Shown here: positions 10,579-14,209 of the stretch, one piece after another
How the letters are laid out: the number at the start of each line of letters is the position of its first letter
Position numbering within the stretch: position 1 is the first letter of the stretch
DNA from: an uncultured Verrucomicrobiota bacterium
GTDB lineage: Bacteria > Verrucomicrobiota > Verrucomicrobiia > Limisphaerales > UBA9464
DNA length: 53,793 bases
NCBI GenBank assembly: GCA_903854475.1
Contig: CAINWP010000247.1
Span: 1-53,793, forward strand
Reading direction: 5' to 3'
Program-made: the position numbers and the translations under genes
The notes under the pieces: model-generated
What the model was told of the DNA's origin: nothing
The model's input: the letters and a program-made list of their open reading frames with translations, nothing else
The model's database searches: none

Positions 10579-10729
10579 ATTCTCAAATTTTCAGAGGCGT
10601 TTTTTTTAAGGTGCTCCCCGAGGACCGTGTTCTGCCAGAGTAAAACCCATTGGAAACAACGGGTCTTTTGATCGACTCCTTGACTCATCCCTTGCCAATC
10701 CTCGCGATGGTGTGCCATTTACCGCATCG

Positions 10730-11125
10730 ATGAAGTCTGCATCGCCTGTTGTTTGGGGCCTTTTGGCTGCGCTAGGTCTGGGTTGCGCTAGTTCCCAAAA
10801 CACCAATCTGACCTCGCGCTCGGCCGCGCCGTCACCCGAAGCCAACTATTTGTTCGAGACCACATTCCGGACGCATCGTCGTGGGGTGCAACCCGAGAAC
10901 GTGAAGGCCTGGGTCATGATGGGATTAAACTTGTATCCCATGCAGCCCGTTCCTAACACGGACAACCGATTTGAGGCATTGCTGCCGCTGCCGACAGATC
11001 GTTCTATCTTGCGGTACCGATACAAATTCCAGTTCACCTATCCTGGGGTGCTGGACAATCATATCAACAGTACCATGTCGCCGGAGTATGAACTCCAAGT
11101 GAAGTCGGGCGCCGCACGCGACTGA
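10730..11125 (+). CDS. Small lipoprotein of unknown function
   Basis: A 131-residue protein with a lipoprotein signal: MKSASP, a hydrophobic core and the lipobox LGLGC (Cys about 19) followed by ASSQ. The mature part has beta-rich segments (WVMMGLNLYPMQPVP, LRYRYKFQFTYPG), reminiscent of an immunoglobulin- or glycogen-binding-like sandwich, but I do not recognise a family. ATG 10730 was chosen over GTG 10712 because it gives a canonical signal peptide. It is followed by an 800-base gene-free, repeat-bearing stretch. Confidence 0.65.
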   Translation: MKSASPVVWGLLAALGLGCASSQNTNLTSRSAAPSPEANYLFETTFRTHRRGVQPENVKAWVMMGLNLYPMQPVPNTDNRFEALLPLPTDRSILRYRYKFQFTYPGVLDNHINSTMSPEYELQVKSGAARD

Positions 11126-11282
11126 CCCTTTACTCGGGTCTAGCGCAGTATCTTAAATAAGTCTTATTAAAATCAAACGACCGTGCCGTCTTCTGGGCAG
11201 GGTTCGTCCGAAGATTCCAGTCGAGCTCTCCCCTGAGTAACGGTCAGAACCCCACCGCCTGATCCAAGCGCCAAGAACGCCC

Positions 11283-11335
11283 AGTTTGCAGCAGGAACCT
11301 GCGATGTAGCCCGATGAGCCTCCGAGTCCGATCCT
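11283..11335 (+). repeat. Flanking long direct repeat, copy 1
   Basis: Starts AGTTTGCAGCAGG and ends GATGAGCCTCCGAGTCCGA + TCCT, immediately before the first hairpin unit. It matches 11570-11628 closely, with differences concentrated in the middle (GAACCTGCGATGTAG versus GCTCCGGCATGCAG). Confidence 0.85.
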
Positions 11336-11518
11336 AGGTAGGGACCGATCTCCGAGCGGTCCGTGTGTGCCGACCCTGCTCTTAGGTAGGGACCGATCTC
11401 CGAGCGGTCCGCGTGTGCCGACCAGGCTCTTGGGTAGGGACCGATCTCCGAGCGGTCCGCGTGTGCCGATCCTGCTCTTAGGTAGGGACCGATCTCCGAG
11501 CGGTCCGTCCCCACCGAC
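11336..11518 (-). repeat. Tandem array of a 48-base hairpin repeat (3 full units + 1 partial)
   Basis: Units begin at 11336, 11384, 11432 and 11480 with a period of exactly 48 bases; the fourth loses similarity after about 39 bases. On the minus strand each unit contains a 21-base hairpin with arms GGACCGCTC and GATCGGTCC around a GGA loop (one C·T mismatch), followed by CTACCT. On the plus strand the hairpins are at 11342-11362, 11390-11410, 11438-11458 and 11486-11506. The spacers between hairpins (CTACCTAAGAGC… type) are also nearly identical, so this is not a CRISPR array. Confidence 0.93.
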
Positions 11519-11520
11519 GC

Positions 11521-11546
11521 GGCGCTTTCGGAGAAATCGCCCTACC
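11521..11546 (+). repeat. Opposite-strand variant of the hairpin repeat
   Basis: A 21-base hairpin with arms GGCGCTTTC and GAAATCGCC around a GGA loop, followed by CTACC. It has the same length, loop, single C·T mismatch and 3' flank as the minus-strand units, but a different stem sequence and the opposite orientation. It directly abuts the last tandem unit. Confidence 0.8.
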
Positions 11547-11569
11547 TCGGAAACGCGTGGGTGAGGCCG

Positions 11570-11628
11570 AGTTTGCAGCAGGGCTCCGGCATGCAGCCCG
11601 ATGAGCCTCCGAGTCCGACCCTGCTCCG
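11570..11628 (+). repeat. Flanking long direct repeat, copy 2
   Basis: Second copy of the AGTTTGCAGCAGG … CCGATGAGCCTCCGAG element, again placed directly upstream of a hairpin unit (11629). The pair shows that the flank plus hairpin behaves as one duplicated block. Confidence 0.85.
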
Positions 11629-11667
11629 AGGTAGGGACCGATCTCCGAGCGGTCCGCCCCTGCCGAC
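11629..11667 (-). repeat. Detached fifth copy of the hairpin repeat
   Basis: The same AGGTAGGGACCG… unit as in the tandem array (hairpin 11635-11655), 110 bases downstream of the array. It is preceded by the second copy of the ~55-base flanking repeat. It diverges from the array unit after about 39 bases. Confidence 0.9.
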
Positions 11668-11927
11668 ATGTGTACGGCGACGATTATTTTATTAATCCCG
11701 TTGCCTAGAGAGAGAATCTTATCAAAGAAGTGGTGTTCTGAGAGTAGTTATTCCTCTCCTGACTTCACGGTGTCGACTTCCTCTCGAACGCCAGCAATGG
11801 CAGGAAGCTAACAAATTACTAAGGACAGACTAGCGAGAGTCAACTAGCCCGGAGATACTGTCCAATTCGGGATCTTTGATTCTGAGCTTCCGACCCTCCG
11901 CTATCGGGTTGAGTATTCAGGAGTGAA

Positions 11928-12965
11928 TCAGAACGAGAGTTCTAATTGGTCATCTTCGCTGAGCGCGTAGGCTTCCATCCCTTGGCGACGTAAGTGTCGG
12001 GCAAAATCGGCAGCGAAGCCGTGGAGTGTGAATACCCGCTGCGGTCGCACTTCATTCACGAATCGCAGGAGGTCCGGGAAGTCAGCATGATCGCTGAGAG
12101 CGAACCGTGGGTGGTTTTCGTCCGTCGATAGCCAACGGCGGTCCAATGCCCAACCACTGAGCGATGCGATTCGGAGGGGACCAATACTGGGTTGGGCTGA
12201 GAGCAGAGGTCGAGCAGTCGGCGTGATAATAACGTGGCCGCGTGCAGTCTCAGGATCTAGCAGCGTCCAGCGGGGAAACTGGTATCCTAGGTCTGCATAT
12301 ATTTCAGTCAGTCGGGCTGAGCTGGCGTGCAGTTGAATGGGAAGGTTGGCTTTGAGAAGCGAAATCAGAATCTCTTGTGCCTTACCCAAAGAGTAGCTGA
12401 TCAGCACCGGGGTGATTCCGGCATCAAGCGAGGTTCTGCAGAAGTGGAGTACTGACGCCAGCACCTCCTCCGTCGGCGGAAAGATGTACCGTGGACGCCC
12501 ATAGGTGGTTTCCATGACCAAAGTACGGGCATGCACCGGCTCGCAACGTTCGGAGCTCCGACCCTCCCGGAGTTTAAAATCTCCGGTGTAGAGCAGGGAA
12601 TCCCCATTGACCTCCAGTCGGGCCATGGCACTGCCCAAGACGTGCCCCGCCGGATGCAGGCTCAGGCCGAACGGCGTCTGAGTCGTCGATGACTCTAGAT
12701 CAGCGTGATGGAGGCACTCGTTGAATTCGAGCACCCGCTCCGTTCGGATTCCGGAAACCCGTGATCGCATTAGTCGGCGCGTAGGCTCGGTGAAGAGGAC
12801 CGCGGAATGGCGAGCCGTGTGATCTGCGTGGGCATGGCTGACGACAACCCACTCGCCCGTCCGGACCGGATGATGGGGATCCATCCATAGTCCGAGTTTG
12901 GGAAAATGAAGGCCACCGTCCCGGTATTTGAAATCCAATTCTGAAGCCACGGGATGGCCCGCCAT
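11928..12965 (-). CDS. Metallo-beta-lactamase/beta-CASP-type exonuclease (ligase-associated family)
   Basis: A 345-residue protein with the MBL motif HAHADH (44-49), GHVLGSAM, a TGDF metal ligand segment, METTYGRP typical of the CPSF73/Ysh1-like and ligase-associated exonuclease group, and late LSDHADF and TLHG histidine motifs. It is expected to be a zinc-dependent nuclease acting on DNA or RNA ends. No ATP-dependent ligase gene is next to it, so the 'ligase-associated' label rests on sequence style only. ATG 12965 was chosen: it lies 2 bases after the upstream stop, with GGAGGAG about 10 bases before it. The two minus-strand genes form an operon. Confidence 0.82.
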   Translation of the reverse strand: MAGHPVASELDFKYRDGGLHFPKLGLWMDPHHPVRTGEWVVVSHAHADHTARHSAVLFTEPTRRLMRSRVSGIRTERVLEFNECLHHADLESSTTQTPFGLSLHPAGHVLGSAMARLEVNGDSLLYTGDFKLREGRSSERCEPVHARTLVMETTYGRPRYIFPPTEEVLASVLHFCRTSLDAGITPVLISYSLGKAQEILISLLKANLPIQLHASSARLTEIYADLGYQFPRWTLLDPETARGHVIITPTARPLLSAQPSIGPLRIASLSGWALDRRWLSTDENHPRFALSDHADFPDLLRFVNEVRPQRVFTLHGFAADFARHLRRQGMEAYALSEDDQLELSF

Positions 12966-12967
12966 GT

Positions 12968-14209
12968 CTAGGAGACTCCTCCGGTACCCTTCACATCGAG
13001 ACAAAGGAGTTCACCCTTCCAGTTTCGGATGTACAAGCGTCCATTGAGGAGCACGGGTGTCGACCAGACTTTGCCTCGCGCAACTTGGGCACGAACCACC
13101 TCATGGTAGCCCGTGGGGTCGGCCTTGACGATGATCAATTCGCCGTTGCCCGTGACCCAGATCAGCTTGTCGTCAGCGGCGGTCAGCACACCTGTTTCAG
13201 CCTTCGGAGATTCCCATACAACCTTGCCGGTCGTGGCTTCGAGGCATTTGAGTCGCGCATTGCCATCTCCGCCATCGCCATCAATGCCATAGATGTGACC
13301 TCGGACCCCGATGGGTGCCTGCATGTGCGATCGGAGGGCCTGATTCTTCCAGAGTTCCTTGGCTCCAGATCCGGTGAATCGGATTCCGCAGGCTCCTGTG
13401 CCATAGCCAGACGTGAGGATCATAGTGTCGCCGATTACCACGGGGTCCGCAGCGTTGACGTCGTAGCGAGTTTTCCAAGAGTGACGCCAGAATTCATGAC
13501 CGCTCACCGGATCAACAACGATCACATGGCGAAGGCCAAAAATGGCCAAAGCCGGCTTTCCTTCTAGGGAAAAGGGAACTGGAGTGCCATAGCCGGCCGA
13601 GCCTTTTCCGCTCGTCCACGCCTCCTTGCCGGTAGCCTTATCCAGCGCCATTCCAGCATCGCCCGCATTGTACACGACCTTGTCTCCGGCGATGTGCGGT
13701 GCCCCAGCGAAGCCCCATTCGGGAACCTTTAAGCCGAGTTCCGATGCCAGATTTCGGGACCAGATAACGTTGCCCGACGAGGCCTCGAGGCAAAGAGCGG
13801 TGCCTGCTTTTGAAAGCGTATAAACCCGGCCACCATCGACCGTGGGCGTTCCAGAAGTGCCTCCCTCGTAATAGTGATCCGCGAGTTTCTCAGGATAGCT
13901 ATGGCGCCAAAGCTCTTTGCCGCTGCTGGCTTCCAGCGCCACAACACTGTCGATGCCACCCTCTTTCAGGCCATTGTGTCCCAAGGTGAAGAGTCTGCCT
14001 TCGACGAGGCTCATGGATGAGAATCCGGCTCCGACAGTGGCCTTCCAAACAGGGCGGGGTTGACCTCCTGGCCAATTGCCTAGCCACCCACTCTCTGCGG
14101 AGATGCCGGTTCCATCGGCGCCACGGAAGCGGGGCCAATCAGCGGCGGACACAGTTGAGGAGTGGATGGCTGTGACCACTGCAAGCCCATACAGACAGGA
14201 ACGCGTCAT
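12968..14209 (-). CDS. Exported PQQ-binding-like beta-propeller protein
   Basis: A 413-residue protein. A signal peptide starts at MTRSCLYG and ends near VSAADWP. Repeated propeller blades follow, with the WxxxxGxG pattern of PQQ_2 repeats (ALEASSGKELWRH, CLEASSGNVIWSR, CLEATTGKVVWES). The opening WPRFRGADGTGIS is the hallmark of the PQQ-like propeller proteins abundant in Planctomycetes and Verrucomicrobiota. No dehydrogenase active site is evident, and a structural or binding role is likely. The in-frame upstream start at 14254 would add 15 residues before the signal peptide, so ATG 14209 is preferred. Confidence 0.87.
   Translation of the reverse strand: MTRSCLYGLAVVTAIHSSTVSAADWPRFRGADGTGISAESGWLGNWPGGQPRPVWKATVGAGFSSMSLVEGRLFTLGHNGLKEGGIDSVVALEASSGKELWRHSYPEKLADHYYEGGTSGTPTVDGGRVYTLSKAGTALCLEASSGNVIWSRNLASELGLKVPEWGFAGAPHIAGDKVVYNAGDAGMALDKATGKEAWTSGKGSAGYGTPVPFSLEGKPALAIFGLRHVIVVDPVSGHEFWRHSWKTRYDVNAADPVVIGDTMILTSGYGTGACGIRFTGSGAKELWKNQALRSHMQAPIGVRGHIYGIDGDGGDGNARLKCLEATTGKVVWESPKAETGVLTAADDKLIWVTGNGELIIVKADPTGYHEVVRAQVARGKVWSTPVLLNGRLYIRNWKGELLCLDVKGTGGVS

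Follow-up and report, generated by a model that had tools for sequence, protein, structure and literature searches.

GTAG-tagged hairpins in an uncultured Verrucomicrobiota genome: a probable RAYT-linked REP family with one array inside an IS630-derived relic

GTAG REPs, RAYTs and REPtrons are already known, and the verrucomicrobium Opitutus terrae is described as rich in GTAG repeats (PMC3733652). For TnpA_REP, the GTAG and the irregularities of the stem are reported to matter for the recognition of single-stranded DNA (PMC8266576). MITEs derived from IS630 elements are likewise known, with RUP of Streptococcus pneumoniae and the Correia elements as examples (PMC2817692, PMC3049150). These papers and those cited below are represented here by excerpts, and our comparisons with published systems extend as far as those excerpts. 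Here we describe hairpins from an uncultured Verrucomicrobiota bacterium, starting from a cluster in one stretch of 53,793 nucleotides (contig C247; the window). We consider it highly probable that these hairpins are GTAG-tagged REPs of the RAYT-mobilised kind, with two subtypes, A and B, arranged in a BIME, and that the array in the window lies inside a relic of an IS630 element. Such a family is ordinary in kind; as far as our searches show, the lineage and the combination of REPs with an IS630 element are new. Among the matches listed, a search of the open-access literature returned no recognised account of this family or of REP arrays inside IS630 relics.

The cluster comprises six imperfect hairpins between 11338 and 11655. 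Five are of type A, GTAG-GGACCGATC-TCC-GAGCGGTCC, and lie on the plus strand at 11338–11362 (with the GTAG tag at its left), 11386–11410, 11434–11458, 11482–11506 and 11631–11655; the sixth, of type B, GTAG-GGCGATTTC-TCC-GAAAGCGCC, lies on the minus strand at 11521–11545. Written as repeats, GGTAGGGACCGATCTCCGAGCGGTCC recurs at 11337–11362, 11385–11410, 11433–11458, 11481–11506 and 11630–11655, and the reverse complement of GGTAGGGCGATTTCTCCGAAAGCGCC occupies 11521–11546. GTAG precedes all six hairpins. Each is a 25-nt unit with a nine-position stem and a 3-nt loop, and eight of the nine positions are paired in both types. Read on the GTAG strand, the one mismatch is A.G (C.T on the opposite strand); it falls at position 7 in A and at position 5 in B, and stem positions 3, 4 and 6 are changed on both sides between the two types with pairing kept. 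A GTAG tag and a palindrome of about 25 nt with a stem mismatch are also found in the y and z REPs of Escherichia coli (PMC8266576) and in the GTAG families (PMC3733652). A loose hairpin pattern matched nine times in the window (these six and three unrelated matches), compared with a mean of 0.69 and a maximum of 3 in 100 shuffles.

Type A copies 1–4 are spaced exactly 48 bp apart and sit in four head-to-tail units, one hairpin per unit (11332–11523, plus strand). The type B hairpin is inverted relative to type A, and the pair that it forms with copy 4 has its GTAG tags outermost; copy 5 stands at the junction with the right end of the enclosing insertion. A 57-bp spacer segment, D2, occurs on the plus strand at 11279–11335 and again at 11566–11622 (84% identity), and is also found beside hairpins at other loci. 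The first-pass annotation of this DNA had reported six hairpins, five on one strand and one on the other, four of them in a 48-base tandem array, and a nine-position stem in which a C·T mismatch moves between positions 5 and 7 and positions 3, 4 and 6 change as pairs. All of this is correct, and the array is in exact register. The GTAG lead, the 57-bp repeat and the larger IS630-derived insertion are features of the cluster beyond that description.

The genome of origin, a 4.44-Mb draft in 340 contigs and 97% complete, contains 203 type A-like copies (117 + 86; 26-mer, up to three mismatches) and 340 matches to a degenerate A/B pattern (184 + 156), with none in the reversed control of either search. 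The possibility that the genome holds no other copies, or copies with pairing that is not conserved, was checked and is not borne out. The same A/B pattern is abundant in seven other genomes of the genus (G001, 101 matches; G002, 153; G005, 44; G007, 66; G011, 147; G012, 17; G017, 56) and yields 0–5 matches in each of the remaining 11 genomes of the genus searched, which makes the family patchy. Elsewhere in the taxonomic family to which this genus belongs, the other genera gave 0–3 matches to the pattern with at most one mismatch, not above the reversed control. A broader frame, GTAGGG-N5-TCTCCGA-N5-CC, in which pairing of the two N5 blocks was not required, is found in 63 of 387 genomes across the phylum, that of the window included (17 matches in G176, for example), with 0 or 1 match per genome in the reversed control.

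The exact type A 25-mer is present in at least 70 stretches of public draft genomes, mostly labelled as Verrucomicrobia MAGs, some of them from named lakes or ponds. With this finding, uncultured Verrucomicrobia gain a REP family linked to a RAYT, several of the matching MAGs coming from lakes or ponds by their labels. A few of the carriers are labelled Neomarinimicrobiota, Akkermansia muciniphila or Akkermansiaceae (L130, L131, L140, L149 and L156), labels that look wrong for carriers of this repeat. A viral origin of the hairpins is unsupported, as an exact scan of viral contigs with one 25-mer gave no match.

The first-pass annotation had taken the paired changes between A and B as a sign of selection on structure. 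We examined 57 of 91 distinct hairpins, namely those led by GTAG, a set that includes some chance matches from other genera and that derives from a search pattern fixing four of the nine stem pairs. In these, 79.9% of cells are paired compared with 65.2% after shuffling, and the covariation score is 0.311 compared with 0.113; neither value was reached in any of 500 shuffles, and slid structures are only 21.6–42.5% paired. Two of five covariation measures were not above the shuffles, namely pairs changed on both sides (223 of 500) and further pair types (68 of 500). Pairs are broken in many of the single-copy variants, which makes decay the source of much of the variation among hairpins. A type B variant with a compensated change from T-A to G-C occurs in eight sequence contexts, which are perhaps related by descent. 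The strongest covariation evidence is the phylum-wide frame with its varied, paired stems: at the loci fetched from other genera, 19 of 27 distinct block pairs are base-paired at four or more of five positions, compared with 13% for shuffled partners.

A transposase of the expected kind is encoded by a sibling genome. Contig C68 of G011 (locus L430) carries a RAYT of 166 aa (NF047646, 85.8 bits; cut-off 80) for which the nearest solved structure is TnpA_REP 4ER8 (E 6.7e-06). Hairpins A, B and A lie at 1080, 1151 and 1238 of this locus, the gene runs from 1405, and a further A and B follow at 1902 and 2021; among these five, the A at 1080 and both of the B hairpins are variants. This arrangement, a RAYT flanked by A and B hairpins, is REPtron organisation, and the enzyme presumably acts on both types. 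The stop codon of the gene is the TAG in the GTAG of the downstream hairpin (1902–1926).

RAYTs that exceed the NF047646 cut-off are found in 4 of 19 genomes of the genus. In other genera, 30 RAYT loci were drawn from 22 genomes selected because they contain the hairpin frame, and four of these loci (L405, L411, L425 and, with a variant loop, L399) have hairpins of this type to either side, compared with none of 600 shuffled loci; a fifth flanked locus, L397, was found through the hairpin search itself. A scan of 23 RAYT loci, counted by hand and without a shuffled control, placed GTAG- or GTGG-led hairpins on both sides in 19, on one side in two and on neither in two. Likeness to the G011 RAYT does not sort loop types: L424, L412, L421 and L416 equal L405 in likeness and have other loops. 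In L405 (G448, 1258–2019), the open frame of the RAYT reads through the flanking REP hairpins on both sides. The frame GTAGGG-stem-TCTCCGA-stem'-CC, with many stems and several RAYT partners, provides a ready set for the study of RAYT/REP co-evolution.

Of the options raised in the first-pass annotation, the REP/BIME one is upheld by the GTAG tag, the hundreds of copies, the inverted A/B pairs and arrays, the covariation across the phylum and the flanked RAYT of a sibling. The REPtrons of E. coli and of the GTAG families likewise have copies in the hundreds, inverted dimers that combine two subtypes, and a RAYT with the same hairpins on its flanks (PMC8266576, PMC3733652). In contrast to those families as they are presented in the same sources, the hairpins described here come from another lineage, have other stems and in some clusters lie in IS630 relics; Opitutus terrae is among the published GTAG families.

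That annotation had also stated that no RAYT lies in the window, and had proposed a search for one elsewhere in the genome. None was seen in the part of the window examined, and the genome-wide NF047646 search listed no match on contig C247. The wider search had a divided outcome: the draft itself yielded no cognate RAYT (best match on C222 with 74.7 bits, below the cut-off), but the sibling G011 has the flanked gene. The C222 match, a RAYT-like frame of 152 aa at 281–655 (L433/L442), has hairpins of a different GTAG family (GTAGGGATCGAGTCCTCTCGGTCC with its relatives) to either side. A screen with PF01797 (Y1_Tnp) had found eight matches in the genome of origin, none near hairpins, and 57 Y1 loci in eight hairpin-rich genomes, none with these hairpins in the fetched flanks. 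This pointed to a hairpin family without any RAYT, a reading overturned by the NF047646 match in G011; because that model found a flanked RAYT, the negative result of the PF01797 screen reflects a failure of sensitivity.

Assembly may also have played a part. No contig below about 3 kb was among those seen in the draft, so a RAYT enclosed by arrays could be missing from it. Contigs of this draft often end in or near arrays, and a RAYT gene between two arrays could drop out of such a draft. In the hairpin-rich genomes, several Y1 transposase genes (L035, L276, L279, L281, L282 and L285) run off contig ends, which suggests that multi-copy elements are lost from drafts. A tentative possibility is that the cognate RAYT has gone from the species of the window and that the REP arrays now spread inside IS630-derived MITEs. 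If so, two unrelated transposases, one of the HUH tyrosine and one of the DDE type, would serve a single repeat family, and new intergenic sites would receive hairpin arrays as ready-made clusters.

The cluster lies in a MITE-like, IS630-derived insertion (11140–11847, plus strand) between TA at 11141–11142 and TA at 11845–11846. On its left is a gene for a protein of 137 aa (10712–11125, plus strand), with a 65–96% identical protein in 11 relatives; on its right, and convergent with it, is a gene for a metallo-hydrolase with an RMMBL domain (11928–13004, minus strand; orthologues in relatives), in which Pfam RMMBL scores above its cut-off and the beta-lactamase domains below theirs. The insertion is absent in 11 of 11 relatives that have both neighbours on one contig (G001, G002, G003, G005, G007, G010, G011, G012, G015, G016 and G017, with one neighbour partial in two), and their spacers are without these hairpins. 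Relative to its closest relatives, the window has about 704 extra bases, from 11140 to about 11847.

The left end of the insertion (11140–11282) combines a terminal inverted repeat with roughly the first 28 codons of an IS630 transposase gene that has decayed; the hairpin array, about 110 bp and a degraded IS630-type right terminus follow (right end, 11668–11847, in which the terminal part resembles an intact IS end). The segment 11202–11282 is 74% identical over 27 residues to the transposase of an intact IS630 element. An intact relative of 1170 bp is present in L191 (G016), where it encodes a transposase of 369 aa (NF033545, 258.7 bits, cut-off 100; PF13358) and exists without REPs. Terminal repeats of the CTAGTGCAGTGTCTC type are found in the L191 element and in relic copies; those of the window are degraded at the right terminus. 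The ~110 bp in 11668–11790 recur in relics and have no match to an Rfam family or to the end of the IS630 transposase gene.

Counting the window, the genome of origin has 18 matches to the left end and 14 to the right end, and the ends also occur in some relatives. IS630 ends number 31 in this genome and 1–9 in G001, G002, G005, G007, G011, G016 and G017, with none in other members of the genus. Of the 14 right ends, eight have a common junction with a type A hairpin, always at the same short distance; in one the nearest hairpin is of type B, and the remaining five are shorter and joined differently. Three more right ends adjoin a type A hairpin (C157, C176 and C179). The DNA behind the right ends differs in all 14 (by eye), and this, with the shared junction and the right ends adjoining type A, indicates that REP-bearing copies dispersed as units, which an IS630 transposase may have moved in trans. 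Left junctions differ, with a residue of the transposase gene of 28 to 104 codons where tblastn detects one. Six left ends and seven right ends, near-identical within each set, extend to the edge of their contigs, and the interior of the element is therefore missing from this draft. TA is present on both sides at the window but is not conserved in the relatives shown, and a duplication of the TA target is therefore suggested at C51 only, where the empty relative L139 has a single CTAG at the site of the element and the right TA of the element is now TT.

Several known elements resemble this insertion. Like RUP and the Correia elements, it has IS630-type terminal repeats, a TA/CTAG site, an incomplete transposase gene and many scattered copies; unlike them, as the excerpted sources describe them (PMC2817692, PMC3049150), it carries a REP/BIME array and ~110 bp as cargo. 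A tandem array inside a MITE is shared with the minisatellite-bearing MITE of Porphyromonas gingivalis, for which the opening of the abstract mentions no REP hairpins or RAYT (PMC4596501). GTAG-15 of Anabaena variabilis similarly has REP dimers inside a larger repeated inverted-repeat sequence, but in the excerpted description no REP-free copy of its outer palindrome was found, whereas the outer IS630 relative described here is also found REP-free, in L191 (PMC3733652). The relics are a concrete case of a DDE transposon that carries REP arrays, with the possibility that REPs spread without a RAYT in the same genome.

The insertion raises the question of whether the hairpins are no more than components of an IS630-derived MITE family, spread by the IS630 transposase and not by a RAYT. 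The type A junction common to eight of the 14 right ends fits this explanation, as does the presence of IS630 ends in seven of eight hairpin-rich genomes. However, among 19 whole clusters (from the hairpin search, on contigs as far as C184 with 400 bp of contig to either side, counted by hand), four lie in IS630 relics, and IS630 ends are missing within 400 bp of the other 15. G012 is without any IS630 end but has 17 hairpins. The hairpins are therefore independent of these ends. The RAYTs of G011 and other genera, flanked by hairpins of this type, also speak against it. As the sole explanation it is contradicted, and we regard it as very unlikely, although it is right for a minority of copies.

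A second alternative holds that the hairpins are RNA elements, terminators or mRNA-stabilising hairpins, under selection between genes. The cluster in the window is intergenic and sits between two convergent genes, and known REPs are, in the excerpted source, mostly downstream of genes and in many cases plausibly transcribed (PMC3733652). Placement of the other loci comes from crude ORF calls only, which put sampled clusters between gene pairs in other orientations as well. The insertion with its hairpins is absent from the 11 relatives. No match to Rfam was found in the window at the gathering threshold, or in 11100–11900 up to E 1, and a curated RNA family is accordingly unsupported. The fold of the hairpins as RNA is unremarkable (z −0.90 to −1.49), whereas as DNA the GTAG strand folds better than its shuffles (z −2.67 for A and −2.42 for B) and better than the strand opposite (z −1.25 and −1.42). 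The structured-RNA option of the first-pass annotation is thus not favoured, and the RNA alternative as a whole seems to us highly improbable. The DNA fold of the GTAG strand would fit recognition of single-stranded DNA as in TnpA_REP.

We give negligible weight to the idea that the 48-bp array is a coding repeat, specifying repeats of 16 aa within a minus-strand open frame (113 aa, 11173–11514): the frame spans the array and 48 is a multiple of 3, but hairpin units at G001 C65 are spaced by 68, 68 and 70 bp, the frame extends, in antisense, into the left end of the IS630 element, and relatives lack the insertion as a whole. The frame is very likely spurious.

Under the preferred reading, in which the hairpins are RAYT-mobilised REPs, a RAYT would recognise a single-stranded hairpin with a 5' GTAG and an A.G-mismatched stem and would have moved REP units around the genome, where local arrays would then have grown and shrunk through tandem duplication. 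An IS630-family element enclosing such an array would have lost most of its transposase gene and, with its REP cargo, would have inserted at TA between the two convergent genes, which it may affect. In a sample of 66 clusters counted by hand, hairpins occur in both orientations in 43 and as head-to-tail neighbours in 25; the sample is limited to hairpins in which GG follows GTAG, contains a few isolated matches probably due to chance and mixes in clusters fetched for their IS630 ends. Unit numbers differ at one orthologous locus: at C120, type A units 48 bp apart number one in the genome of origin, two in G001 and four in G011, with no units in G005 and G017. A comparison of ten stand-alone or array loci with four relatives (one locus without a usable alignment) showed several clusters conserved in place and no clean empty site with a defined insertion unit.

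Two further observations concern the surroundings of these arrays. At L304 (C103 of the genome of origin, 1444–1606), an IS630 left end begins roughly at the point expected for the CTAG that leads the next 48-bp unit, which would fit a landing of the IS within a REP array. The genus also has a second REP family, GTAGGCCGCGTGxCCTCACGCGGC; it flanks another RAYT, one that scores above the cut-off, in G003 (L429), G005 (L431) and G001 (L432), and similar hairpins flank a RAYT in another family (L410).
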